Shown piece after piece: positions 2,976 to 57,923 of a stretch of DNA of 64,000 nucleotides. The stretch lies in the NCBI GenBank assembly GCA_015143295.1, contig CM026557.1, positions 25,639,760 to 25,703,759 of the forward strand, read 5' to 3'. The position numbers and the translations under genes are program-made. The notes beneath the pieces are model-generated. The model was not told the DNA's origin. It saw only the letters and a list, made by a program, of their open reading frames with translations, and did no database searches. The DNA comes from Tetracentron sinense (lineage: Eukaryota > Streptophyta > Magnoliopsida > Trochodendrales > Trochodendraceae). Position 1 is the first letter of the stretch. Each line of letters opens with the position of its first letter.

Positions 2976-3332
2976 TCAAGCGAATCTCACAAGGATAGCT
3001 CACAAGTGTATCTCACAAGTCACATGATCACAAGCAAGCACGCATGACATGCATGACATGACACGTACAACACAAGCAAGATAGACAAGACAAGCTTTCA
3101 AGTACGAAAAGACATTTCAAGCCAAGTCAAGTGCACGATGTTTTCAAGAGGTTTTATCGGTTTTCTACGAAATACAAGCATGATTATAAATTGCTTTACT
3201 TCCTTGTATGATATGAATTGCTTCTGTCTGACATATATGAATTGCTCCTGATTATGTATTGCCATTGTTATGCTATAATTGTTGGTTAGTATTTAGTACC
3301 CGCTGAGTATTCAATGCTCAGCCGTACTTCTT

Positions 3333-18162: not shown

Positions 18163-19713
18163 GGCCTCTTAGGGGGTTATGGTTTACCCAAAAACCTAAA
18201 GGAGACCTAAGAGAGATTGAGAAAGAAGAAGAAGAGAAGGAGAGACTTGGAGTTTTGCTAAGAGGGATTTTGGAGCAAGATCAAAGGGAGATCAAGGGAG
18301 CTCAAAAGCTTGAAGACTTCAAGCAAGGGCCATCCTCCATCAAGCTAGAGATCCCTACCCAAGAACTCACAATCAAGGGGTTTTCTTCAAGATTTAGGGA
18401 AAATCCTTAAGGTTAGTACACCCTTACTAACTAACTTAGTAGTAACCTAGGTTTGCTTTTGAATGCTTTAGGGTTGATAATGTGTGTTCTATTGTTGCCT
18501 TAATATCCTGAATTCTTTAAATAATGCAAGATAAACTAAGTAGGGTGGATGATGTGTGATGAAAATGTTGGAAGGGATTAGTACACATAATGAACACACC
18601 ATGTGTTTGATGAAATGTTTGAATGAGAAAATATAAAAAAAATAAGCATAAAATATGATGAACACCACTTGTTTGATAAATTGCATGAATAACAATACCA
18701 AGAAATTAAATGGAGATTTTTAAATATGATTTATGTAGTTTCTCCTCAAATGATGACTTTGGTTAAATGCCTTATATATTACCTAAAATTCTCACATGTT
18801 CACAATATGAATTGAAATGTCACATGCTAGCATTGAGTGTACATGTCATCATGATCATCACTATTGCTACACACAAGCACGCATGCATGCCTAAATCGGG
18901 TTTTCTTAAAAGCATAAGTATTTGAAAGAAAAGACAAGAAAACAAGAACATGTCAAGGAGGTTGGTAGCCCAAGTGACGGGTGCTAGTCTCTGGCTCACA
19001 AGAAAAGGAAACAAGTACATGTCAAGGAGGTTGGTAGCCCAAGTGAAGGGTGCTAGCCTCTAGCTCACAAGTAAATGAAACAGGTACATGTAAGGAGGTT
19101 GGTTTTAGAGCCCCGGGATTTAGGTTCACTGTTCATGTGAATAGTGCTGTGAATGGTGTGTGAATAGTGCCTTCAAGGCCTAAAGCCTTAATGAAATTGT
19201 GGGTTCATGTTTTATAATGAAAGGAGGTATTAAATGAATCAAAATATGTATGGAAAGTGTTGTGGGGGTTTGGGATAAATGAAAAATGAGAGTATGGTAT
19301 ACTCTAAGTGTCAAAGAAAGGAATGCATAAACATACCCTCAAATTTGACGAGCTCTAGAATTCTCACCACTGATCAGAATTGAGTGATTTTTAAATTTTT
19401 GGAAAGGTATTGAAACCATATTTGAGGTTCATGTTTATCACATTTTCAGATTTTGAGTCGAGGATAGGTCAAACATCAGATTTCCGAAAACGAGTCTGCT
19501 GAAAATCTCGGCTGCTGAATTCTATTTTCAGACCAGTCAGCTTTATAGGCGATTTGGTCTATGAAGATGGAAGAATTAGAAAATTTGTAAAACATAAAAT
19601 TTGTAACGTTTTGAAAGAAAAATCCAACGCAAGTTGAATCGTTAAAATCGGATAAACGAGTCAAAATTTATGCTCAAAATACCAAAGCGGGAAAACCGAG
19701 GGCCCTGTCATGC

Positions 19714-19796: not shown

Positions 19797-21133
19797 ACCC
19801 AGACGATGGTGAAAACATCCAGAACTTTTCCACCGACCTTGGGAGATATTTTAGGATATTTTTTGAGATCTTTTGGGATATTTTGCCAACCTTTAGGCTA
19901 TAAATAGGATCCTAAATTCGTGTCTTAGGGTTTACAAACCCTAAGCTTGGATTTTTGAGAGATTGAAAGACAAGAAGAAGAAGGAAGCTAAGGTAGTTCT
20001 TGGGTGTTCTTGAGTTTGTGTTTTCCATCAAAGGAAGAGTCTTTCTTGCTTCCTTTGTGTTTTAAAGTTTGGATTTCATCCCCAAAGTGATTCTTAAGCT
20101 TAGAAGTTTCCAAGGAAAATTTTGTTAGTGTCTTCGAAAACGGGATTTCAGATTTTCCAGCTTTCTCAAAGCTTCAACCAAGCTTGATTCTTGTTCCACA
20201 GAAGTGTAAAAACTTCCATTTCAGGTAGGCACACTCTACTATCTACCCTTGACTATTCTTTAAATAAAATCATGTTTTAAAGTGTGTTCTTGGATGAATT
20301 GGATGATGAATTCTAAGTGTTTGTAAGCTATCACTATTATTGAAATTCTATGATTATGAATCCATGTTTTTAAGCTTTCTAAGTATAGTATGATGTTCAG
20401 ATGCACTCTATGGTTTTCAAATTACTCTAAGGCTCATAAGTCTTGCATGTCTCCATGATTTCTCTTAAGTGTGGTTTATCGAAGCATTCATAAGAATCTC
20501 TAATAACTCATAAGCTACTAAGCTCATAAGCATTGATAAATCCAAACATCGGGTTGGTCAAGGGTAGGGTATATCCAAGGATATATCAAGCCTGGCTCTA
20601 AGAAATCTCATAAGAAATCAAGGATTTTGGTAGCCCACTTCTATGTATTCGATGAAGGGTATTTACATGCCCGGCTCTAAGACTTTTCACGGGTGCTAAG
20701 GTCTAGCTCTAAGTTAATGCTCATAAGAAATCTCACAAGAATCAAGGAGGTTAGTAGCCCAGGGTTGTGCGGGTACTAACCTCTGGCTCACAAGAAATCA
20801 TAAGGACCTCATAAGCTCATAAGATCTCATAAGTCTCACAAGTGAACGCTCACAAGCTCATAAGTGCTCAAAGATCTCACGGCTCACAAGAACTCATAAG
20901 AACTTTAAGGATCTCATAAGAACTCTAAGGAATTCAAAGAACTCATAAGACTTGATTCTCATATACTCATAAGTCTCATATGGTTTTGGACTTCATAAGA
21001 ACTCATAAGGAAACGGTTTTGGAATTGGTACGGGTTTTGACGGATTTCTATGCTCCATGGCTTTATGTCTTGCATGCTCCATGTTATTGTTATCTCACTG
21101 TTAGCCATTAGTTTGTATATCACTGAGTATTCC

Positions 21134-21295: not shown

Positions 21296-21956
21296 GAGAG
21301 GGAGGGAGATCATACTAAAATTTTGAGTATATTGAGAGTAGGACTTGTCCACTCCATATATTTGGATATGTTCTGTTGGTCCAGACTTGGACTGAATTAT
21401 AGGAGTATATTATTATAAATCATTTCCGCTATGTTTTACAACTTGTGTACTTTGACAGGATGGTAAGTATATGTGCCTTATGTGTCATACAGGAGAGTAT
21501 GATACGGCGGTCCGAGCTAAAGTATCCCTAATTCCTAGAGGGTATTTTGGGTCGCGACATTGGTAGCCCAGGGATGTACGGGTGCTAGCCTCTGGCTCAT
21601 AAGAAAAGGCTCACAAGAAAATGATATGTCAAGGAGGTTGGTAGCCCAGGGATGTGCAAATGCTAACCTCTGGCTCACAAGTATACAAGAAAATTTGTAA
21701 AACGAGAAAAGCTATTTTTAAGAACAAGTCCAGGTTTCCAAACATGAGTTTTACTGGGGTTTTCGCATTCATGCACGCATGTCAATATTTTCATGTTGCT
21801 TTACTTTCAATGCTATAAATGTCTTATGTTGATATTACTGTTTCAATTAATGTGATGAATTATATCCTATTGCTTTGTTGTGAGTGTTATTGTTGTTGTT
21901 AGCTAGTAGCTTGTACTCGCTGAGTATTCCATGCTCAGCCATACTTTTATGCCGAC

Positions 21957-22088
21957 AGGTACCGTAAATGTCCTCGTCCTGAGCATTGGGTCGAGGAAGA
22001 GTACGTAGAGGAGAAGAAGCCACCTATCCCACTGCAGTCTCAGGAGGATAGGGATTTGGACATGTGGCCATACCTCGACTACTGTTGA
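21957..22088 (+). CDS. LTR-internal acidic micro-ORF (LTR B copy)
   Basis: The conserved part reads PEHWVEEEYVEEKKPPIPLQ, and the end is MWPYLDYC before TGA at 22086-22088. The WPYLDYC ending is shared with LTR A (26475-26491) and with H. An ATG in the CGGCAG region of other copies is not evident in the same frame here, so a spliced 3' exon is as likely as a free-standing peptide. Function unknown. Confidence 0.3.
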   Translation, partial: RYRKCPRPEHWVEEEYVEEKKPPIPLQSQEDRDLDMWPYLDYC

Positions 22089-22421
22089 GAGGAGAGTGTG
22101 AGAGAGTTCCTTTTTGTATTTTGATAGGTGGGCATGTCCACCTTTACCTTGATCGTGTGTAGAACCCTGAATCCGTATCTCACTAAGTGTGAATAGTGCC
22201 CAATTGTGGTTTTGTTCACTAAGGGGCCTTATGTTAATATACGAGTTTAGATTTATGGCGTGCATGTTCTATTAGGTCTACATATCCTTAAGGAGTGTGT
22301 TAAAAGAATAAAAGAGTGTTGGAATGGGATTGGAGAAGATCCAAGTAGTGAAAACAAGGTTTTACAGCAAAACAGGGGATCACCGATCGGTCGATGCTAT
22401 CCTCCGATCGATCGGTACTCT

Positions 22422-24588
22422 TGTTGGACATATATGCCCTCGAAAGCCAATGAGAGACTTTTCTATGTTGATTAGATAAGCATCATATTCACACAACAAA
22501 CTATAAAGGGTATTTATATTAATTACTGTATTATATGATAAAGACATAAAGTTCCATAGGTAACATTGTAGGAAAATCATGCAAAGGTTGCGAGGAGATA
22601 TGATTTTCCGGTTCCTTGTAAACCTAATATTGTTCGAAGCCTCTAGAGTACTGGTTGGGCGCCGTACTTCATCATGGCTTGCACATGTGTAGTTCTATGA
22701 GATAGTGTGATGAATCTCATTCACAGAGAGTGGTGACTCTTGACTAACATGTGATATATGTAGCAAGTACATAATACTAAACGGGGTCACTAGTGGATAC
22801 CCTATGGAATATACTGTTAGATTGTATTAGGGTTATCCATTTGAAAAATTGTCCTTAGACCTGAGAGGTTAACATCTTCTCAGACATTTGTCTATATGGC
22901 TTTGATGTGCCAATCGGCAATGTCCAATACAATGGACTAACTCCGGGTACGTTGGGTCATGTACACAATGTTTGGAGAAGTGTGTAAACACTCAATAAGG
23001 AATCCACAACTCCTTAATTGGAGATAATGATATCAAGGTGATACTTGTTGAACTGAACTGCTAAATCCAGTACTGGTGCTTTTCGGTAAAATGGTCTTTA
23101 TCGAAGTTGATATTTTCAATATGGAAAAGTATATATAAATATATATGTGTCAGTTCTTTTCTAATGTTTCTTCAAAAGTGTTTTGGAGGTTCAGTTCAAT
23201 GAAAAAGTAATCATGAGAAAGGGTTCTATTCATAAGCTAGGGACTAGACAGTGGAGTTGTTTCAATCCCGTAAGCTTACAAGTGATATCGGAATGTGGAA
23301 GGATTTATTTTAAATATATTGTGAGATAGTACTTACAAACAATTCTCTAATTTCTGGAGGTTAATCACATTGTGTTAATGGACATTAATTGTGATTGGTG
23401 GAAGTCCAGGGATATAGATAAAATTCTATAATCCTAATGGAGTGTAGGAAAGTTGTTTCCTAGTAACAATGCTTTAACCAAAAAGGTTTAGTACTTGGTC
23501 CCACAACCGGAAATAGGAGATCCCTTTAGATCCCACACTCAAGGACTTTCTTAAAGTATTTAATTTAATTTATAGTTAAATTAATTAATTTCTCTAAGTA
23601 ATCACTATATGGTATACTAAAGCTCTAAAAGGTGGAATCACATTGGATGTGAGAAACCAAATGGGTAGGACCCATTGGGAATTATTATACAAGAATAATT
23701 CAAGTGACCAAGAGGGTTTTGGAAACCCTTTGGGCGTGTGGGGTGGGGCCCACCTAGGGTGGGACGCCCACTTCATGGAGGTATTAATAATAATAATTGT
23801 TATTATTATTTAATTAGTATCTAATAGCTAATAGCCTTATTGGATAAGGTTAATTAGTTAGTTAGAGTTAGTTACTAATTAAAGATTCCGTGTTGGACAA
23901 AGAGTCTATTAGTTTCTTGCTAATCAAGGAACACTAATGGATGGGATTAGTTTCTATTTTGATTATTCCTAATTAATTATGGAGAAACCAAATAGGAAAC
24001 TAATTGAGGAATCCTTATTGGATAAGGATTAGGAAACTTTGGTTGTAAGCAACTAATAAAGCCTATAAAGAGGGTTGGACGTCCAAGGCTTTGGGCATTC
24101 TTTAATTTTCTAGAATTTCCAGATTTGGAAACCTTTCCCCTCTTCTCAAATGTCACGCCCAGCCCCTCTCTCTAGTGGTGTACAGTCACCCCTCTCCCCT
24201 TTCTACTCTTGTGTGTTCTAAGTTTTGAATAATCAAGAAGAAGAAGATCAAGGATCTTGATCATCAAGAAAGGTTCTTTATAATCAAAGATTGGATATTT
24301 TATTCAAGATTCCTAGAGCTGAAAATTTGGAAGGGCCATTAGCTTCTATTAGAGAAAGCTTTAAAGGAAAAAGAAGGTTCGTGTGAATCGACAGGAGACT
24401 TGACACTTGTGAAGTTTTGCGAGTACTGTTCTTATGTGGATTTGACTTAACAATTTCAAAGTCGCAAAGGTGATTGTGATTTCTAACCTTCATTGAATAA
24501 AATCAATTAGAATCTTAGTCTGATCTTGGGATTCGATGTATGCCCCCCAAGAACTGTGTTTCTAAAACTAAAAAGAGACATACTTTCA
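22422..24588 (+). mobile_element. Solo Copia LTR E (about 2.2 kb)
   Basis: It starts TGTTGGACATATATGCCC, like LTR F1 at 5330, and most likely ends ATACTTTCA at 24588. The flanks are ACTCT (left) and CCTCT (right), agreeing at four of five bases, so the boundary is probable but not certain. It shares the start and scattered blocks with F1/F2 (such as ATTTTCCGGTTCCTT), so it is a related family. It lies within the palindrome array of LTR D. Confidence 0.78.
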
Positions 24589-24594
24589 CCTCTA

Positions 24595-24716
24595 CCGATC
24601 GATCGGTGTATGGGAAAAAAATTCTAGAGAGGGTGTTCTCAACCGATCGATCGGTGGAAGCCACCGATCGACCGGTAAGCCACCGATCGCTCGGTCTGTA
24701 CCACCGATCGATCGGT
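24595..24716. promoter_or_regulatory. Array of ACCGATCGATCGGT palindromes in LTR D
   Basis: Five copies of ACCGATCGATCGGT or close variants lie here, and two more lie left of LTR E (22380-22416), so E split the array. A spacer GTATGGGAAAAAAATTCTAG (24608) is similar to the spacer in H and Copia arrays. The TATA box follows at 24771. Confidence 0.55.
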
Positions 24717-25539
24717 TATACGCAGATTTTCTTCATTAAGGGTGTTTAAGACTTTAGCCATCATCACTTGCCTATATAAAGGCTTGTTTGTGCCTTAGGG
24801 TTTCAGAAACCCTTAGTGCATTGCTTTTGAAGGATCTTGAGAGGAGAAGAAGGAGAGGAGCTAGGGGGTTGTTCAAGCTTGGAGGAAGATCAAGTTCTTC
24901 CATCCTTTTAGTGTTTCTCAACCAAGAACTCAAGATTCTTGCTTGTTCAAGCCTTTGGGAATCAAAGTCTTTTGATTTCACCAAGGTAGATACACTCTAC
25001 TACCAATCTTGCAATACTACTAAGATACTAGATATTGTTCTTCTTAATCTATGCTATGTAGGTATCTTGATTTGTATGGTGTGAAAGGATATTGTTTTAT
25101 ACTTGGATGTAAGATATCATTATGATGCACTCTAAGTATTTGATGAAGTGTCTCTAAGAGTTTTTGGGGTGTCAAAATATGCTAGTACTCTTGTGTGCTC
25201 ATATGCTCGCATGTCTCGCATGAACCATAGTTTTTCCATGAATTTATCAAAGTTACAAAAGAGTTTTTCAACAAATGACTTATAAGGAATGATTCTAAGC
25301 AACTCTATAATTTGTCTAAGATCGGTTCACAAGCTCTAAGGATCATGATACACACTCACAAGAACTCCATGATATCTCTAAGATCGTCTCACAAGCTCTA
25401 AGGATCGCAAATGAAATGCTCTAAAATCTCTATGGTATTAGCTCTATGGTTTTGCTCTATGCTCTATGTCTCTACGGATCATAATTGACTCTAAGTAACT
25501 CTATGAACTCACAAGAACTCACAAGGCTATGATTATCAC

Positions 25540-25854
25540 ATGACTCACACGGAAATTTATTTTGGTTTCGGATTTCGGATTTCATCACCTATACTATACA
25601 TGGTTTCTACGCTTTGCTATGCTTTAAGGATTTCAATCTCCATGCTTCGTATGCTCTATGCCATATTGCTTTATTATTATTGGTTTGTATACACTGAGCA
25701 TTCCACGCTCAGCCGATATTTGTTATCATCGGCAGGTGCTCGGGCTCCGTTTGATCTATGTGGCACGGAACCATGGGTAGAGGAAGAGTACTTGGACCCA
25801 GAGCCTTCCATGGACCCCTACCAGGACGATGGTTCAGTCTTTGAATTTTGTTGA
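25540..25854 (+). CDS. LTR-internal acidic micro-ORF (LTR D copy)
   Basis: The frame is open for 104 codons. Only the part from the GCAG/GT site (about 25732) onward is conserved: SAGARAPFDLCGTEPWVEEE followed by an acidic tail ending FEFC. The upstream residues come from hairpin and non-conserved LTR DNA. Similarity to LTR C is clear in both halves. Function unknown. Confidence 0.38.
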   Translation: MTHTEIYFGFGFRISSPILYMVSTLCYALRISISMLRMLYAILLYYYWFVYTEHSTLSRYLLSSAGARAPFDLCGTEPWVEEEYLDPEPSMDPYQDDGSVFEFC

Positions 25855-26379
25855 ACTACTTAGATTGGCATTATGTTTCGTGATGTGAGAGTGGGACTTG
25901 TCCACTCCACCATTTGGATTCTCACAGATGTGTATTTTGGTTGGTTCCTACTTGGGCCAAGTTATAGGAGTATTTGCTCTACTTCTGCTATGTTTAGTGC
26001 TTTCATTTCCGTTGTGCATTGTATATCGTTTCCGCTATGTATGTTAAGGTACTCTGACAGGTTTCCATGTATGCCTTATGTATCATATCAGAGGTATGGT
26101 ACGACGGTCACGAGTCAAAGTATCCCTAACTTCTAGGGGATATTTTGGGTCGCGACATCGTGTTTTGTACATGAACTTGGAATACTATTTTGGGGTTATA
26201 GAAGGAAAGAAAAAGTTAGTTCACGCTTCCACATTCATGATATAGCTTCCGTGCTCTGATTATTATTGTATTATATAATGTTTAGCCTTGTTCATTATAG
26301 GATGGTTTGGTAGGTACGCATAGTCTCCTCTAAAGTATCCCTTAAACTCGTAGGGGGTATTTTGGGACGTGACACTCAA

Positions 26380-26774
26380 CCTTGAGCCTTGGGTTGAGGA
26401 AGAGTATGTTGAGGAGAGAGAGCCTCCTATCCTGATACAGTCACAGGAGGATAGGGACCGCGACGTGTGGCCCTATTTAGATTACTGTTAGTAAAGAGAG
26501 TTGTGAGGGTTCTCATTTTGTATTTTGATAGGTGGGCATGTCCACCTTTATCCTTATAATTATGTTTTGTATATGTTAACTTGGAATACTAGTTTGAGTT
26601 ATAGAAGAAAAGAAAATTTTGGTTTACGCTTTCGTACTCATGTTAGCTTCCGTACTCTGATTATTGTTATCATTATATCATGTTAGCCTTGTTTATTACA
26701 GGATGGTTTGAAAGGTATGAATAGTCATTTCTAAAGTATCCCTTAACTCGTAGGGGGTGTTTTGAGGCGCGACA
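26380..26774 (+). repeat. Gypsy LTR A, right piece
   Basis: It continues LTR A after the CTCAA duplication: LEPWVEEEYVEEREPP, a DVWPYLDYC ending (26491), GATAGGTGGGCATGTCCACC, and the terminal TTTTGAGGCGCGACA. Agreement with LTR B and H supports the reading that A was one LTR before B inserted. Confidence 0.88.
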
Positions 26775-32344: not shown

Positions 32345-32675
32345 AGAACCTAGTATGTCCATCTATTTCATAGTTCGGGTACTAGTTAAACAAGACAAGA
32401 ACCTAGTATGTCCGTCCATTTCATAGTTCGTGTACTAGTCAAGACAAGACAAGATGCTAATGTGTTCCATTCCATTATAGTCTGGGCATTAGTAAAGCAA
32501 GACAAGAACCTAGTATGTCTACCCATTTCATAGTTCGGGTACTAGTTAAATAAGACAAGAACCTAGTATGTCCATCCATTTCATAGTTCAGGTACTAGGC
32601 AAACAAGACAAGAAAGAATGACAAGATCCTAGTACGTCCGTCCATTTCATAGTTCGGGTACTAGCAAAATAAGAC
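32345..32675 (+). repeat. Six-unit hairpin array in LTR G
   Basis: Units run from CCTAGTATGTCC to GGGTACTAG with ATTTCATAGTTC between. Five units have arms CTAGTA/TACTAG. One (about 32458-32492) has CTAATG/CATTAG. Both arms change together, so pairing is kept. Confidence 0.8.
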
Positions 32676-33052: not shown

Positions 33053-33277
33053 CCGATCGCTCCGTCTAATACAGCGATCGATCGGTTCACAACCGATCGC
33101 TAGGTTATTTTAGTGATCGATCGGTCCAAAACCGATCGATCGGTAGCTAGCGACTGGTTAACTTTTTTGTATGGGGAATTTTTCTAGATAGCATGTTTTT
33201 AACCGATCGCTCGGCCAAGAACACCGGTCGCTCGGTAGGCGACCGATCGATCGGTCATAACCACCGATCGCTCGGTC
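33053..33277. promoter_or_regulatory. Array of ACCGATCG(A/C)TCGGT palindromes in H 5' LTR
   Basis: About nine copies include perfect ACCGATCGATCGGT at about 33131 and 33242. The array is divided by a spacer with TTTTTTGTATGGGGAATTTT (33163). The 3' LTR has the same array (43931-44139) with one unit fewer. It starts about 125 bases into the LTR. Confidence 0.6.
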
Positions 33278-34265: not shown

Positions 34266-34632
34266 GTCAAGGAGGTTGGTAGCCCAGGGATGTTCGGGTA
34301 CTAGCCTCTGGCTTATAAGAAAACCAAAAATCACTACATGTTAAGGAGGTTGGTAGCCCAGGTCAAGGAGGTTGGTAGCCCAGGGATGTTCGGGTACTAG
34401 CCTCTGGCTCACAAGAAAACAAAAAATCACTACAAGTCAAGGAAGTTGGTAGCCCAGGGATGTTCAGGTACTAGCCTCTGGCTCACAAGAAAAACAAACA
34501 AGTAACTAAAACCAACATTACATGTCAAGGAGGTTGGTAGCCCAGGGATGTTCGGGTACTAGCCTCTGGCTCACAAGAAAACAACATGTGAAGGAGGTTG
34601 GCAGCCCAAGGAGGTTTGGGTGGTAGCCTCTG
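34266..34632 (+). repeat. Hairpin-unit array in H 5' LTR, 6-7 units
   Basis: Each unit reads AAGGAGGTTGGTAGCCCAGG then GATGTTCGGGTACTAGCCTC and TGGCTCACAAGAAAAC. GGTTGGTAGCCC and GGGTACTAGCC are imperfect inverted repeats. The same unit occurs in LTR B (18955-19103 and 21565-21680), C (about 20745) and, reversed, I (38955-39018). Hence it is shared by several LTR families. Confidence 0.85.
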
Positions 34633-36886: not shown

Positions 36887-38192
36887 GGTACGCAAGAATT
36901 CTAGAGTTTAAGTTGTGAATAATTTTTATGATTACCTATGTAAGATGCTTGTTATTGTTTGAAATCTATTGATATTAGTTACTTAATCGCACATGCGCTT
37001 TATTAGTGAACGAGTGTCTCGCCCGAGTGTTAATCGACACAGGATCCACTCACTCCTTTGTCTCACCCAGTTTTGCAAAGGCCTTTTTGATCGAGGCTAC
37101 TCTGTTAGAGCGGGAGTTGACCATTGTAACTCTGCTTGGCAAGTAAGTTGATACGGATAAAATATTTAGAGATTGTGTGGTTCAAGTGGGGGAGAATGAA
37201 CTACTAGCCGATCTCATCATCCTAGATTTCTAAGACTTGGATTTCGATGTCATCCTAGGGATGGATTGTTTGTCAAACCACCACGGGCATGTTGCATGCT
37301 TTGAAAAGATGGTGAACTTCAAACCGGAAGGGGCTAAGCCTTTTCACTTCCGAGGATTAAGAGAAAGGGACGTTGCTTGCATTGCAGTTTTGAGCTTAGC
37401 AAACCCAGAAGCACAAAACTCCTCGGTCATTCCGGTCGTGAGTGAGTTCTTGGATGTGTTTCCAGAGGAAATTCCTGGGTTGCCTCCTGATAGAGAGATC
37501 GTGTTCGCTATTGTAACGCCCCAAAATACCCCCTAGGAGTTAGGATACTTTGGCGACGTAACTTAACCTTAAATTAAACCTGCAAAGAGTGTACAAGGCA
37601 TGCAAAATAGTAAACTAAAAATTTCTTTAATCACTTAACTGTATTCCAAGCATAATTGTTTACAATAACTGAATAGAAAATAAAACATGTACATGACTTC
37701 TTAACTTGAGTCCCAACTCAAGTGATACAATTTTCCCCAGACATAAGAACCCCAAAATACATGTCTCTCACCCTTTACCCAACCGTAGGGTCACAGGCCA
37801 ACCCTAATATCCGACTGACACTCCAAGCAACCTCCTACTCTCCATGTACTGCCTGGATAGCATCTGGTGTACCTGCTGACATCAAAGTACAGCTGAGCAT
37901 GGAATACTCAGCGAGTACAAGCTACTAGCTAGCAATAGTAATAACATTAAGATATCATACATGATACAGTTCATCAAAGGGTACAAAATCAGAGTGCGCA
38001 AGCTAAAAGGAAATAATAATATAGAGTAAATCATGAACAACATATTTTAACTCATGCATTGTAAACTAGTATTCAAAAGTCATGACTTGTTCTTGAGAAT
38101 ACTTCTTGTGATTTTCTGAAACTCGTTTGCCGTATTTACAACTTATTCTTGTATCGTGGGAATCACACATGCTTTGTTTCGTTCTTGTTTAG

Positions 38193-38873
38193 CTAGTACC
38201 CGAACTATGAAATGGACGGACATACTAGGTTCTTGTCATTCTTGCGTGTCATGTTTAACTAGTACCCGAACTATGAACTGGACGGACATACTAGGTTCTT
38301 GCTTTCCTTTGCTAATGCCCGGACTATAATGGAACGGAACACATTAGCACCATGCTTACTAATGCCCGGACTATGATTGAACGGAACACATTAGTATCCT
38401 TATCTTGACTTGACTAGTGCCCGGACTATGGTTGAACGGAACACACTAGTTATCCTTGTTTACTAATGCCCGGACTATAATTGAACGGAACACATTAGTA
38501 CCATGCTTACTAATGCCCGGACTATGATTGAACGGAACACATTAGTATCTTTCCTGTTTTACTTTGCTAATGTCCGGACTATAATGGAACGGAACACATT
38601 AGCAACTTGCGTACTAATGCCCGGACTATGATGGAACGGAACACATTAGTATCTTTCTTGTTTTACTTTGCTAATGCCCGGACTATAATGGAACGGAACA
38701 CATTAGCCTCATGCTTGACTTGACTAGTGCCCGGACTATGGTGGAACGGAACACACTAGTTATTCTTGCTTACTAATGCCCGGACTATGATTGAACGGAA
38801 CACATTAGTAACTTCACTTGTTTCACTTGCTTAGCTAATGCCCGGACTATGATGGAACGGAACACATTAGCAT
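38193..38873 (-). repeat. 13-unit hairpin array in LTR I with co-varying arms
   Basis: Units of about 38 bases (spaced 45-60) read, on plus, CTAATGCCCGGACTATGATG then GAACGGAACACATTAG. The 7-base outer arms come in four matched sets: GCTAATG/CATTAGC (four units), ACTAATG/CATTAGT (five), ACTAGTG/CACTAGT (two) and CTAGTA/TACTAG (two). Whenever one arm changes, so does the other. Loops of about 25 bases are far better conserved than the spacers between units. Confidence 0.9.
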
Positions 38874-39951
38874 CTTCATTTCCTTGATTATCGTGTTTTC
38901 TTGTGAGCCAGGTATGACATATCCTAGGGATATGCCCTACCCCTGACATTCATGTTAATTTAACTTGTGAGCCAGAGGCTAGCACCCGCACATCCCTGGG
39001 CTACCAACCTCCTTGTCATATGCTTATTTCTTGTTATTTCATATGCTTATATTCAAAAAGTTTGGTTCATGCATGTGTGACAATCGTACTATCATAGATG
39101 AATCAAGGGACACATATTGCATTTCGATTCTCTTTTTCATAATTATGTTAACATGAAACCGTAAAGCATAATATGGCATTTCTTGTAATTGCATAGGCAT
39201 GGGGAATTTAATGAAAACATATAAAGCATTTGTTTTAAAATCACCCTTTTAAGAAAAACTACACAAGTCATATTTCCCAATTCCTTCATTTTATTCTTGG
39301 CATTCTCATTCATCCATTTTGTCAAACACCTAATGAGTAACACATTCAAACCACATTATTTCAAGTTCTTAAATGTTCATATGTTTCATCATACACAAGG
39401 CGTGCGTTCATTATTCGTACAATGCCCATCCACCATTTTTCATCACACACCTCACACAATACGGCATCCAATCGCCTCCATGTCCAACAATCCACATCCC
39501 ATTCACCAATTAATTATCTTGTTTATAATTAGGGAAAATAATGCATTTCAAGGAAAGGAAAGAACACAAGATCCAAAAATCATCATTTTCAAGAAAGGAA
39601 TCTAGGTTATTGCTAAAGAAGTTAGTAGGGTGTACTAACCTTGAAGAAGAGAAGAAAACCCTTGAAAAATGCCATGGAGAATGCTGCCCTAGCTTGGAAT
39701 GGGACTCCACACGTGCTTGAGGTTGGATTTGAGAGATCCAAGCTTTTGAGATGGTCGTGGGTTCCAAAACCCCTTGATTTTCTCAAGTTGATGCTCTAGG
39801 GTGAAAACCCCTTCTCTCATCTCTCACTCCCTCTCAAAATATGTCTAAGGGTGTTTATGAACACCCTTGGCTCGAGCCAACCCTTAAAAATAAGGGTGGA
39901 GTGGCCAAAAGACCAAAAAACCCCAAAACAAATTTCTGAAAATCGTGTAGG

Positions 39952-40048
39952 ACCGATAGACGACTGATAGATGACCGATCTACCGGTAGTGGACCGATCG
40001 ATCGGTGCTTATGACCGATCTTTCGGTAGTGGACCGAGCTCTCGGTAT
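39952..40048. promoter_or_regulatory. Palindromes of the ACCGATCGATCGGT type in LTR I
   Basis: ACCGATCTACCGGT, ACCGATCGATCGGT, ACCGATCTTTCGGT and ACCGAGCTCTCGGT occur within 100 bases of U3 on the minus-strand LTR. Most are near-perfect palindromes, with differences placed symmetrically in the last one (GAGCTC core). Confidence 0.5.
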
Positions 40049-43000
40049 TGACTGGTGCTGCAAAACGCACTTCAGTATTTTAGCCATAACTTTTGACTCG
40101 GTGCTCCGATTTTGAAGATTCAACTTGCGTTGGATTCCTCTTTCGAAGGGGAACAACTTTTATGTTTTAAAAAATTTTTAATTCTTCTGTATTCATGGAC
40201 AAAAATTCCCCTAAATCGGACTGGTCTGCAATGAGTTGCGACAGCCCAAATTTGCAGCCGACCCGATTTTGGAAATCCCACTTTTGACACAACCCCGACT
40301 CAAAATCAGGGAAAGTGATCAATATGAACCTTGAAGAGTATTGTAATATCTTTCCCAAAATTTAATAATCACTTGATTCTGAGCAACGATGACTAAACTA
40401 GAGCCCTTTAAAGTTGAGGTAAATGCCAAAACATACCTTTTTGACACCTAGAATACCTCGAGGGTTTTCACACTCTTTTCCCTTGTGTCCAACACCCTAT
40501 TCACACCTCATAAACCATTAAATTCACACCGACATGCATGAGAGACTCCGGCCTCTCAATGCCTCATGCACTATCACTATGCACCAACAACCCATTGAAA
40601 CACTTAGGGTATGTGTACCCTTGATTTTCCCCACTTAGAGTATCTTTACACTCTCTTTTTAAGACTCAAACCATGTACCTAAAACCCTCACTTGACTAAT
40701 CATAATATCAAGAACACAATGGGAGGCCTTAGGCCTTCACACATACCATACAAGGGCACCTTTCACTGGCACTATTCATGGTATAGTGAACTTGAATTTC
40801 CGGGGTTCTACAGCTATAGAGCTTGCTCCAGGCACTGCTCCGATTTCAAGGGCACCGTATAGAATGGCCCCAATAGAGTTTGAAGATTTGAAGAAGCAGA
40901 TTGAGGAGTTACAACAACTTGGTTTCATCCAACCAAGTGTCTCGCCATGGGGAGCTCCGGTCCTCTTTGTGAAGATGAAGGACGGGTCGATGAGAATGTG
41001 CATCGACTACAGATAATTAAATAAGGTCACAATCAAGAACCGTTATCCCTTGCCACGGATAGATGACCTATTTGATCAACTGAAAGGAGCGAGATTCTTC
41101 TCCAAGATTGATCTGAGATCGGGGTATCATCAGCTAAAGATCAAGGCATAAGATGTTCTGAAGATGACTTTCAGGACTCGGTATGGGCACTACGAGTTCC
41201 TTGTTATGCCTTTTGGGCTGACGAATGCACCGGCGGTGTTCATGAATTTGATGAACCGGGTGTTCCGATCGTATTTGGATCGATGTGTGATTGTATTCAT
41301 TGATGACATCTTGGTATATTCCCAGACACGGGAAGATCACACACGAGACCTTCGCCTTGCTCTAGAGATGTTGAGAGAGCATAGACTATACGCCAAGTTA
41401 AGCAAGTGTGAATTTTGGTTGGAGAAGGTGGCATTCCTAGGCCACGTGGTGTCGGCCGAGGGCATTTCTGTTAACTCGGCAAAAATAGAGGCAGTTATGA
41501 GTTGGGAGAGGCCCAAGAGCGTCACAGAGATACGTAGTTTCCTCGGGTTGGCAGGCTATTATCGGAGATTTATGGAGGGATTCTCCAGTTTGACCGCAGC
41601 TCTCACTTATTTGACGAGAAAAAATGCAAAGTTCAGTTGGAGCGACCGATGCGAAGTGAGCTTCCAGGAGTTGAAGAAACGCCTTACGACGGCCCCTGTC
41701 CTTACAGTACCATCCGGACGTGGTGGTTATGAGGTGTATAGCGATGCTTCACACATCGGACTTGGGTGTGTCCTCATACAGCATAAGAAAGTCATTTCTT
41801 ATGCATCAAGGCAACTAAAGGAGCATGAAAAGAATTACCCCACTCACGACTTGGAGCTCACTGCGGTCGTGTTTGCACTCAAGATTTGGTGACACTACCT
41901 TTACGAGATAGAATTCTATGTGTTCACAAACCACAAGAGCCTCAAGTATCTCTTTTCCCAAAAAGAGCTAAACTTACGACAATGGCGTTGGATGAAATTT
42001 TTAAAAGACTACGAGTGCACCATCCAATATCACCGGGAAAAGCGAAAGAGTGGCTGACGCCTTGAGTAGAAGACCTCCGGGTCTCTTGGCTCACATGTTG
42101 GTGCAGGAATGGAAACTATTGGAAGATTTAACAAATCTGGACATCAGTCTGAATGATTTTGTCCGCAGTCCTGTCTTGGCCAATGTCACAGTTCGGGCGT
42201 ACATTATAGATTTGATCCAAGAGTATCAAGCCACGGATGCGGACTTGTTGGCTTTCCGGGACAAGGAAGTTGCTAAGGGTAGTGAAGACTTCTCTCTCAC
42301 TAGTTGGGGTGCTATTACATTAAACAGAAGACTTTGTGTCCCAGCCAATGCAGACCTTCGGAGAGAGATTATGAATGAAGCTCACCGGTTCAAGTATACG
42401 GTGCATCCCGAGGGTACAAAGATGTATCGGAACCTCAAGAGTCACTTTTGGTGGCAAAACATGAAGAGGGATGTTGCGGAGTACATGACAAGGTGTTTGG
42501 TGTGCCAATAAGTCAAAGCCGAACACAGGAGACCGGCATGACTTTTACAGTCTCTCCCTATTCCCGAGTGGAAATGGGAGCACATCTCTATGGACTTCAT
42601 TGTGGGGTTGCCAAAGATGGCTAGAAACTGTGAAGCTATATGGGTTGTGGTCGACAGACTGATGAAGTCTGCCCATTTCTTACCGTACCGGACTACATTA
42701 AAATCAAATCAGTTAGCGGCGCTGTACATCAAGGAAATAGTTCAGTTGCACAGAGTACTAGTGAGCATTGTGTCAGATAGATATCTTCGATTCACTTCCA
42801 GGTTTTGGAAGAGCTTTTAGAGTGCCATGGGTTCCCGGTTGGACTTTAGCACGACCTTCCACCCACAGACGGATGGAAAAACCGAGCGAGTGAATCAGGT
42901 TATTGAAGATATGCTCAGAGCTTGTATGCTAGACTTCAAGGGAAGTTGAGAAGATCACCTACCTTTGGTGGAATTCGCTTACAATAACAGTTATCAGGCA

Positions 43001-43719: not shown

Positions 43720-45219
43720 TGTAGCACCCCGGACTTTTTCTATACTTAATGAATAACACTTTCGTAGTCAATTGACCTTCCACGTAGTCTAATTTATAAA
43801 TAAGGGAGAAATTGAAAATTATAAAATGTTAGATATGTTCCTTTTCGAAAGATGAATCCAATGCAAGTTGAATCGTTAAAATCCGATGAACGAGTCAAAA
43901 GATATGGCCAAAACAATGGGGACCTGCAGAGCACCGATCGCTACGTCCAATACAGCGATCGATCGGTTCACAACCGATCGCTCGGTTATTTTAGCGATCG
44001 ATCGGTAGCTAGTGATTGGTTAACTTTTTTGTATGGGGAATTTTTCCAGAGAGCATGTTTTTGACCGATCGCTCGGCCAAGAACACCGGTCGCTCGGTAG
44101 GCGACCGATCGATCGGTCATAACCACCGATCGCTCGGTCTATCGTGTTTTACAGAAATTTCATTAAGGGCTTTTACATCTTTTGGACGTTAAACCCTTAC
44201 CCATAAGGGCTTGCTCAACCATTTTGGGTCCCTATTCACTACACTTAGAACATTTAGAGAGAAAGGGGGAGAGAAGAAGGGGGTTTTTCTCCTAGGGCAT
44301 CCTTGGTGAAGAAATCAAGGGTTTAAACACCCAAGATCATTTCAAGAAGCTTGGATTTATCAAATCCAACCTCAAGCTCGTGGGGTGTTCCCTTTTCAAG
44401 CTAAGGCAGCGATCCTACGACATTTTGCAAGGGCTTTCTTCCCCAAATCAAGCCTTCTTCAAGCCACGGTTCTTTCCTACCATTTGGGGTTCTATTTCAA
44501 GGTTTCTTCAAGGTCAAGCCTTGATTCAAGGTTAGTACACCCTACTATCTCCCATGAGCAAAAACCTACGTTTTCTATCGTAAATGGTGACTCTTGATAT
44601 TATGTTTTTCTTCCTTTTGAAATGTGCTATTTCTAGAAAATATAAAGAAGATAATAAGAAATGTGGTGATGTGTGGATGGATGAGGGGTTGAAGCGATTG
44701 GATGCCGTATGGTTGTGGTGTGATGTATGAAACGGAAAATGGTGGAAGGGCACTCTATAAATAAGGAACTTACCTTGATGATTTGATGAAAAATATGCAC
44801 TAAAAAGAGTAAGATGAACTATGAAGGAAATGTTGTATGCTATGTGTTCGACAAAATGCCTAAGCTAAGAGTAAATGAATTAAACGAGGAAAATGGAAAT
44901 AGGAATTGTGTAAATCTTCTTACGAATGATAAATTGCTCAAATGTGCTATATGTTGCCTAAATTGCCATACAATTAAGTTAGAAATTGAAATGTCATATT
45001 CATGTGATCCGCCCATCCAAGCATGTCATCATGATTGTCACTATTGGCACGCACAAGAGCATGCATGTTGCATGAACCGAGTTTTCAAGAGCATATGCAT
45101 ATAATAAATCAATAAGAAAACATTGCATTTCAAGGAGGTTGGAGCCTAGGGATGTTCAGGTACTAGCCTCTGGCTCCCAAGAAAACCAAAAATCACTACA
45201 TGTCAAGGAGGTTGGTAAC
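43720..45219 (+). repeat. 3' LTR of Gypsy H, first 1.5 kb
   Basis: It follows the 5' LTR from the start through the palindrome array (43931-44139), leader and first hairpin unit. At CAAGGAGGTTGGTA it breaks off and LINE sequence begins. The rest of the LTR is not found elsewhere in the window. Confidence 0.9.
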
Positions 45220-57738: not shown

Positions 57739-57923
57739 ACCGATCGCTCGGTATTGAGACCGATCGATCGGTGGCCTACCGAGCGATCGGTGGCTATCGA
57801 CTGGACAAAAAGTTTGTATGGGGTATTTTTCCAGAGAGATGATTTATAACCGAGCGATTGGTCATTTGGACCGAGCGATCCGTTTTGGACCGAGCAATCG
57901 GTAGTGAGCATCGATCGATCGGT
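57739..57923. promoter_or_regulatory. ACCGATCGATCGGT palindrome array in Copia LTR
   Basis: About seven copies of ACCGATCG(A/C)TCGGT or ACCGAGCGATCGGT-type sites are divided by a spacer with TTTGTATGGGGTATTTTTCC (57813). The array ends about 50 bases before the TATA box. The same motif and spacer occur in Gypsy LTR H. Confidence 0.6.

Follow-up and report, generated by a model that had tools for sequence, protein, structure and literature searches.

Thirteen hairpin units stand in a row in a solo LTR of the window (the whole 64,000-nucleotide stretch of Tetracentron sinense DNA analysed here, from a 1.16-Gb genome), and they belong to a family that occurs genome-wide. Each unit is 38 nt long and consists of a 7-nt arm, a 24-nt core and a second 7-nt arm. 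The sense strand can be read from related elements, the arms are complementary in the old unit types, and the units are conserved between LTR subfamilies whose array flanks cannot be aligned. We infer that the array may be transcribed, bound by protein and functional, that pairing rather than arm sequence may be what was kept, and that RNA rather than DNA may act. Our preferred reading, held tentatively and short of an even chance, is that the units are sense-RNA stem-loops that dock a protein, in a Ty3/gypsy-like LTR element. It is preferred because the old pairing, the fixed length, the conserved core and the sense-only wobble pairs of a second hairpin (delta) fit together.

Under the docking reading, the sense transcript of the element would contain the array as a series of short RNA stem-loops. 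In each unit, a stem of 6-8 bp would lead through a short bulge to a CCG/CGG inner helix, capped by a conserved loop; the spacers between units vary in length. A unit repeated in this way, of fixed length and with a conserved loop, could serve to dock one RNA-binding protein at many sites. The protein might be encoded by the host or be the element's own Gag, and it would act on the element RNA.

The array and its host element

The solo LTR has TG...CA ends (TGTAACGCC...TTCTACA) and a 5-bp target site duplication, GCTAT, on each side (Table 1). Together with this duplication it interrupts a Ty3/gypsy-like RT reading frame. Its orientation comes from two sampled relatives, L027 and L035, whose LTRs adjoin PBS-like sequences (TGGTATCAGAGC and TGGTATCAGAAC, respectively). 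In both, the LTR end ...GCG(T/..)... is followed by GAAG and then by the TGGTATCAGA PBS (GAAG-TGGTATC(A)GA.C), on the strand opposite to the hairpin units. L027 also has a G-rich, PPT-like tract before its other LTR end, ahead of TGTAGAGCCCC; its two LTRs are 93.8% identical (2,861 aligned bases). The PBS of both loci and the G-rich tract of L027 therefore make the plus orientation of the units antisense and the window's minus strand the sense RNA. The suggestion of the first-pass annotation to fold the minus-strand transcript was apt for this reason.

The host lineage is presumably Tekay/Del-like. L035 has an open ORF of 140 aa that we take to resemble plant gypsy gag; a Pfam search of this ORF returned 0 families. 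A splice-donor-like sequence, CAAGGTTAGT, lies at sense 1166-1180 of the solo LTR (window about 39633-39647) and a splice-acceptor-like one, GTCAGCAGGTAC, at sense 2928-2942 (about 37871-37885), and the two flank the array. The donor-like motif recurs with at most two mismatches in L009, L024, L036 and L037, and the acceptor-like motif in L009, L022, L024 and L037. A scan of six B-type loci found neither motif, even though five of these loci can be aligned over the block 2850-2950. Elsewhere, window 21541-26774 has four more sense-plus LTR-end-like sequences (ends 21559, 26157, 26374 and 26774), which suggests nested or tandem LTR pieces.

Table 1. Hairpin units, related hairpins and LTR features (window coordinates unless a locus is named)
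Feature	Position	Strand	Remarks
Solo LTR, 3301 bp, TG..CA	37512..40812	-	sense strand = minus, sense 5' end at 40812
Target site duplication GCTAT, left	37507..37511	.
Target site duplication GCTAT, right	40813..40817	.
Array, 13 hairpin units (7+24+7 nt)	38192..38871	-	sense LTR positions 1942-2621
Unit 1, alpha (CTAGTA/TACTAG)	38192..38229	-
Unit 2, alpha	38258..38295	-
Unit 3, beta (CTAATG/CATTAG), outer G/C	38311..38348	-
Unit 4, beta, outer A/T	38358..38395	-
Unit 5, gamma (CTAGTG/CACTAG), outer A/T	38413..38450	-
Unit 6, beta, outer A/T	38462..38499	-
Unit 7, beta, outer A/T	38509..38546	-
Unit 8, beta, outer G/C	38566..38603	-
Unit 9, beta, outer A/T	38613..38650	-
Unit 10, beta, outer G/C	38670..38707	-
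Unit 11, gamma, outer A/T	38723..38760	-
Unit 12, beta, outer A/T	38772..38809	-
Unit 13, beta, outer G/C	38834..38871	-
Second array, same unit family, 6 units	32349..32665	+	units on the minus strand, which would make plus the sense
Delta hairpin, neighbour of array	38975..39011	-	sense orientation
Tandem delta hairpins	34272..34630	+	sense orientation; upstream of LTR end 35334, then PBS 35339 on plus
Further delta hairpins	18958-19060	+
Further delta copy	20747-20783	+
Further delta hairpins, locus L028	63-444	-

The core is 24 nt long in all 13 units of the array. The arms occur as GCTAATG/CATTAGC (four units), ACTAATG/CATTAGT (five), ACTAGTG/CACTAGT (two) and CTAGTA/TACTAG (two), giving nine beta, two gamma and two alpha units. 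Arm positions 2-7 are complementary in 13/13, which bears out the initial description of units bounded by inverted repeats, and position 1 is paired in 11/13, the outer bases of the alpha units being the unpaired G/G and A/G. When the 3' arms were permuted, 19 of 100,000 permutations matched in 13/13, a figure that is not a probability since the units are mutual duplicates. Both sides had also been said to change together at three arm positions. This is correct for the array (positions 1, 5 and 7), but it does not extend to position 1 in the family of 643 sampled units.

Arm pairing in the unit family

The core pattern CCCGGACTAT-N3..7-GAACGGAACA has 2,346 exact matches genome-wide (1,190 forward and 1,156 reverse), counts of this kind skipping decayed copies, and the reversed control has no matches genome-wide. 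The window and 58 loci, 59 sources in all, yielded a sample of 643 units, with 4 to 38 units per source and strand; the count for L027 joins its two LTRs. Loci L009-L038 were taken from the top of the match lists for contigs C1 and C2. L039-L066 were picked from lists of rare combinations, with L059-L066 mixing both lists and nearby places, and the sample frequencies are accordingly not those of a random sample. The core is 24 nt long in 637/643 units, spacers range from 3 to 58 nt (mostly 9-17), and the six inner pairs are all Watson-Crick in 461/643. On the plus strand, position 5 is AT in 307 units, GC in 260, AC in 42 and GT in 20, and position 7 is GC in 497, AT in 102, AC in 19 and GT in 18, the rest being other combinations. 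Position 1 is AC, and thus unpaired, in 277, AT in 214, GC in 71 and GT in 3. With AC in 277/643, the outermost base was rejected as a third co-varying position of the family; its co-variation is a property of the window array instead. Two loci, L011 and L012, are near-identical in arrays and flanks, in opposite orientation and about 85 kb apart; position 2 of one unit is C/A in one of them and T-A in the other.

Pairing is nearly complete among recurrent unit types. Clustering without the arms, with each cluster in at least three loci, gave 48 clusters (other thresholds, with 52 and 40 clusters, agree). Position 5 is AT in 25 of these, GC in 19, AC in two and GT in two, and position 7 is GC in 38, AT in nine and AC in one, with mismatched states in 5/96. 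Of the unit haplotypes, 60 occur in two or more sources; among these, position 5 is paired in 55, positions 3 and 7 in 59 each and positions 2, 4 and 6 in all 60. A set of 44 distinct real units, one per cluster, has its six inner pairs 99.6% paired and its outer helix 98.6% paired. The CCG/CGG inner helix is 84.8% paired; its variation is confined to one side, and any one of its pairs is disrupted in 3 to 10 of the 44 sequences. Two pairs vary on both sides in the same set. The covariation score of the six inner pairs in these units is 0.282, versus 0.147 +/- 0.016 when shuffled (reached in 0/500) and at most 0.085 when slid.

Tree-based nulls treat the positions differently. Position 5 scored 176 in a first run, above the largest of 100 nulls (155; rank 9/741 column pairs), and 423 in a larger set whose tree was built without the arms, above the largest of 60 nulls (362; rank 25/1891). 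Position 7 fell under the largest null in both runs (143 vs 164 and 304 vs 320), and position 1 matched or slightly exceeded expectation. Loop pairs outside the arms, which are unable to pair in the model, score above the arms and above the null. This means that the null fails to absorb the linkage between unit types. Position 5 exceeds this null in both runs and position 7 in neither, and with non-arm loop pairs exceeding it as well, covariation above unit phylogeny is no more than a possibility at position 5.

What of recent change? Among close relatives (at most three non-arm differences), position 5 has 100 single and two double changes, neither double being AT-to-GC and both still mismatched, and position 7 has 69 single versus one double. 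Recent arm change is uncompensated decay, and the compensation is old, amounting to about two events (at positions 5 and 7) and three arm types. Wider relatives (at most seven differences) have 145 double and 682 single changes at position 5, where 54 double would be expected (rank 144/1891 column pairs). The first-pass annotation had seen strong evidence of maintained pairing in the co-changing arms. This survives in that positions 2-7 are nearly always paired in 48 unit types, but not in that about two ancestral double changes lie behind it and recent changes at position 5 are nearly all single. The counter-explanation it had named, a few ancestral unit types mixed by exchange, largely applies, with three types and not two. 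Wider sampling of the family thus reduces what looked like striking covariation in a single tandem array to about two events.

The distribution of arms over cores was also followed genome-wide. A-T at position 7 occurs only in unit types with the core start CCCGA, and with G at core place 5 it has three exact matches genome-wide. Repeated compensatory switching at position 7 was rejected on these three matches in non-alpha cores. Gamma arms in beta cores have 132 exact matches. At position 5 the gamma core is G-C in 810 matches, A/C in 29, G/T in 13 (counted by hand from 28 listed) and A-T in 47. These 47 beta arms in a gamma core compare with 0.5 expected if the 29 + 13 single changes were independent among 810, but a reading as many compensations was rejected. 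Most of the sampled cases have beta-type flanks, so a single core change explains them, and L046 is the clearest exception. This locus has the longest sampled array (38 units), in which G-C, A/C and A-T at position 5 all occur in one loop and 3' flank, with core starts at 998, 1254 and 1506, respectively.

Could descent and homogenisation alone account for the matched arms? Alpha, beta and gamma would then have arisen long ago with arms already matched and been shuffled by unequal exchange or transposition, with no present function and with pairing unselected. We regard this as rather unlikely. The tie of the position 7 change to one core background fits it, as do loop columns that are linked to this change and score as high as arm pairs, the predominance of single over double recent changes at both positions, and the symmetric decay at position 7 (A/C 20 and G/T 19 in the gamma core genome-wide). 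However, two independent double changes that each hit the complementary partner would be improbable without pairing, and mismatched states are few in recurrent clusters. Furthermore, double changes at position 5 exceed expectation among wider relatives, L046 has three pairing states in one loop and 3' flank, and units are conserved where flanks are not (see below).

A mutational origin of the symmetry is very improbable in our judgement. Quasi-palindrome correction by template switching is a mechanism from bacterial work; during reverse transcription or replication, template switching in the hairpin would copy one arm onto the other without selection. Matched arms would then be explained without function. 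However, such correction would act on sense-wobble and sense-mismatch pairs alike, and close relatives should show double changes, yet 2/102 changed pairs at position 5 are double and both are still mismatched. Nor does it explain the conserved core.

Conservation, strand and the delta hairpin

Eight LTRs of subfamily A were compared with eight of subfamily B (64 comparisons a side, 300-bp array flanks). Matched to its best counterpart in the other subfamily, a unit shows 88% identity (90% in the arms and 87% in the core). The array flanks reach 0.628 and 0.638 between subfamilies, about the level of shuffled flanks (0.624 and 0.617). In comparisons within A, identity is 97% for units and 88% and 86% for the two flanks. 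All-against-all, unit identity between A and B is 80%, and spacers reach 79% (best) and 71% (all-against-all); best-of-many matching favours units and the spacers are short and of simple composition, so the contrast of units with flanks is partly one of method. The LTR parts that can be aligned between subfamilies are sense 360-741, 2850-2950 and 3038-3301. Conservation of units across subfamilies with unalignable flanks would be a better indication of function than covariation, judging from these alignments. Either selection or exchange of arrays between subfamilies could produce the contrast.

Do the units act as RNA? Inside the array the strand evidence is weak. For 48 units the mean MFE is -10.8 in sense, -9.1 in antisense and -5.4 when shuffled. 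Sense RNA has an extra U.G pair within the arm in 46/48 medoid units, and position 1 of the medoids is GU in 22, AU in 16, GC in six and other in four (pairable in 44/48). Folding of whole arrays has no sense bias (z of -2.1 in sense and -3.0 in antisense), and single units range from -1.5 to -1.9 in sense, with one at -3.1 in antisense. Exact matches genome-wide have A/C at position 5 in 154 cases and G/T in 28. This excess is largely one inherited type, a mispaired type with plus A/C (sense G.U) that recurs in 19 loci; in the gamma loop it is 29 vs 13 (p 0.02), and at position 7 the decay to sense-wobble and sense-mismatch is even. Over positions 2-7 the sample has 99 sense-wobble versus 69 sense-mismatch pairs, or 86 vs 69 (p 0.20) minus 13 units of the inherited type. 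Genome-wide strand asymmetry was rejected as RNA evidence, being mostly this one type.

The delta hairpin differs in its sequence (GAGGTTGGTAGCCC..GGGT(A/G)CTAGCCTC); it is often tandem and its pattern has 26,258 exact matches genome-wide. The copy near the array folds with its surroundings at -23.8 kcal/mol (3/200 shuffles as good), and 22 copies from seven sources average -17.7 in sense versus -9.2 in antisense. Delta stands in sense orientation in both LTRs with a readable strand, and its wobble pairs form in sense RNA only. The first 100 of the 26,258 matches all come from contig C1, and some stand in tandem. Their three variable places retain a sense pair in 99, 100 and 98 cases; all other stem positions are set by the pattern, so these are the only places measured. 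Of the variable pairs, one is U.G in 50 of these 100 matches, U-A in 28, C-G in 20, C/A in one and U/C in one. For position 1 and delta alike, three of the four base combinations are also expected from one ancestral wobble state and single mutations.

It is also conceivable, though unlikely, that the array is a palindromic cis-regulatory element in DNA. Each unit would be a dyad for a dimeric nuclear factor and the whole a multi-copy enhancer of the sort proposed for Sirevirus motifs and established for Tnt1 boxes. There is a precedent in plant LTRs, where palindromic repeats occur in clusters and stay conserved while their flanks diverge (PMC2829016). The half-sites here are about 30 bp apart with fixed spacing, and the strand asymmetry inside the array is weak, both of which suit a DNA element. 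However, the 24-nt core is asymmetric and conserved as much as the arms, and tolerance of arm letters would lead to mixed half-sites, yet mismatched recurrent types are few. The neighbouring delta pairs in sense only. In addition, the sense LTR has a sole TATAWA, a candidate TATA box at 1286, which is upstream of the array rather than downstream; one AATAAA stands at 1518.

On the RNA side, the docking reading can be taken a step further. The LTRs of this genome's plant Ty3/gypsy elements would carry sense-oriented RNA hairpins in tandem, in two or more unrelated shapes (38-nt unit, delta). These would form a docking platform on genomic RNA, for example for CTE-like export or for packaging, and the array, flanked in several A/C-type LTRs by splice-like signals, would be a means of marking unspliced RNA. 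We consider this extension distinctly improbable.

Known systems

Repeated or clustered stem-loops in retroelement RNA, such as the retroviral export and packaging stem-loops CTE and RRE, are protein docking sites, with Cer1 reportedly another case. We know of none from plant elements, and unlike CTE and RRE, an export or packaging role of the present array is putative. Retrozymes carry hammerhead ribozymes in LTRs. The array is like them in placing structured RNA, here predicted, inside plant LTRs, but unlike them an Rfam scan of 37400-41000 found no ribozyme and nothing at cut-off; two matches lay far under the cut-offs, neither of them on the array. To our knowledge, packaging and export signals of plant retrotransposons are poorly known. 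If the hairpins act in RNA, one genome would offer thousands of naturally mutated copies in which to study how a plant retrotransposon RNA contacts a protein.

Precedents also exist among DNA elements. Tnt1 BII boxes and other tandem U3 repeats are likewise tandem LTR repeats with proposed or known factor binding; the Tnt1 boxes are promoter elements and have no hairpin arms in the parts of the reports examined (PMC3316501, PMC3601003). Bousios and colleagues describe a palindromic motif that is clustered in the LTRs of 13 Sireviruses, in eight or more copies each (PMC2829016). The motif also clusters before env where env is present, and regulatory roles were proposed (PMC2829016). The statement that such structures had not been described for plant LTRs was therefore too strong, given the clustered palindromic repeats of Sirevirus LTRs (PMC2829016). 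A literature search for hairpin arrays in plant LTRs, with subscription journals largely outside it, yielded nothing closer than the systems compared here.

The window also contains clusters of ACCGA-N4-TCGGT palindromes in several LTR stretches (24594-24716, 33131-33276, 39993-40046, 43973-44138 and 57739-57902), which resemble the Sirevirus repeated motifs with their CCG/CGG core. Covariation in these palindromes was not clear; the 63 in the window and loci have outer pairs T/A in 28, G/A in 23, T/C in eight and G/C in two.

How close is the array itself to the Sirevirus repeated motif (RM) boxes? Both have many dyad-symmetric copies clustered in plant LTRs and kept while flanks diverge, a CCG/CGG element within the symmetry, and arms whose letters differ together between elements (PMC2829016). 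In the Ty1/copia Sireviruses, the RM is described as a compact palindrome about 10-20 nt long that sits upstream of the TATA box, and as absent from the classic elements compared (PMC2829016). The array consists of clustered dyad-symmetric LTR repeats too, but in place of a compact palindrome with a CGG-CCG core it has CTAATG/CATTAG arms around an asymmetric 24-nt core with CCG and CGG inside, in a Ty3/gypsy-like LTR and with three arm types in one array. If the hairpins act in DNA, they would extend Sirevirus-type palindromic arrays to a gypsy-like LTR. The nearest kind is the Sirevirus RM box, from which the window case differs in its presumed host element type, in unit design and in its coexisting arm types.
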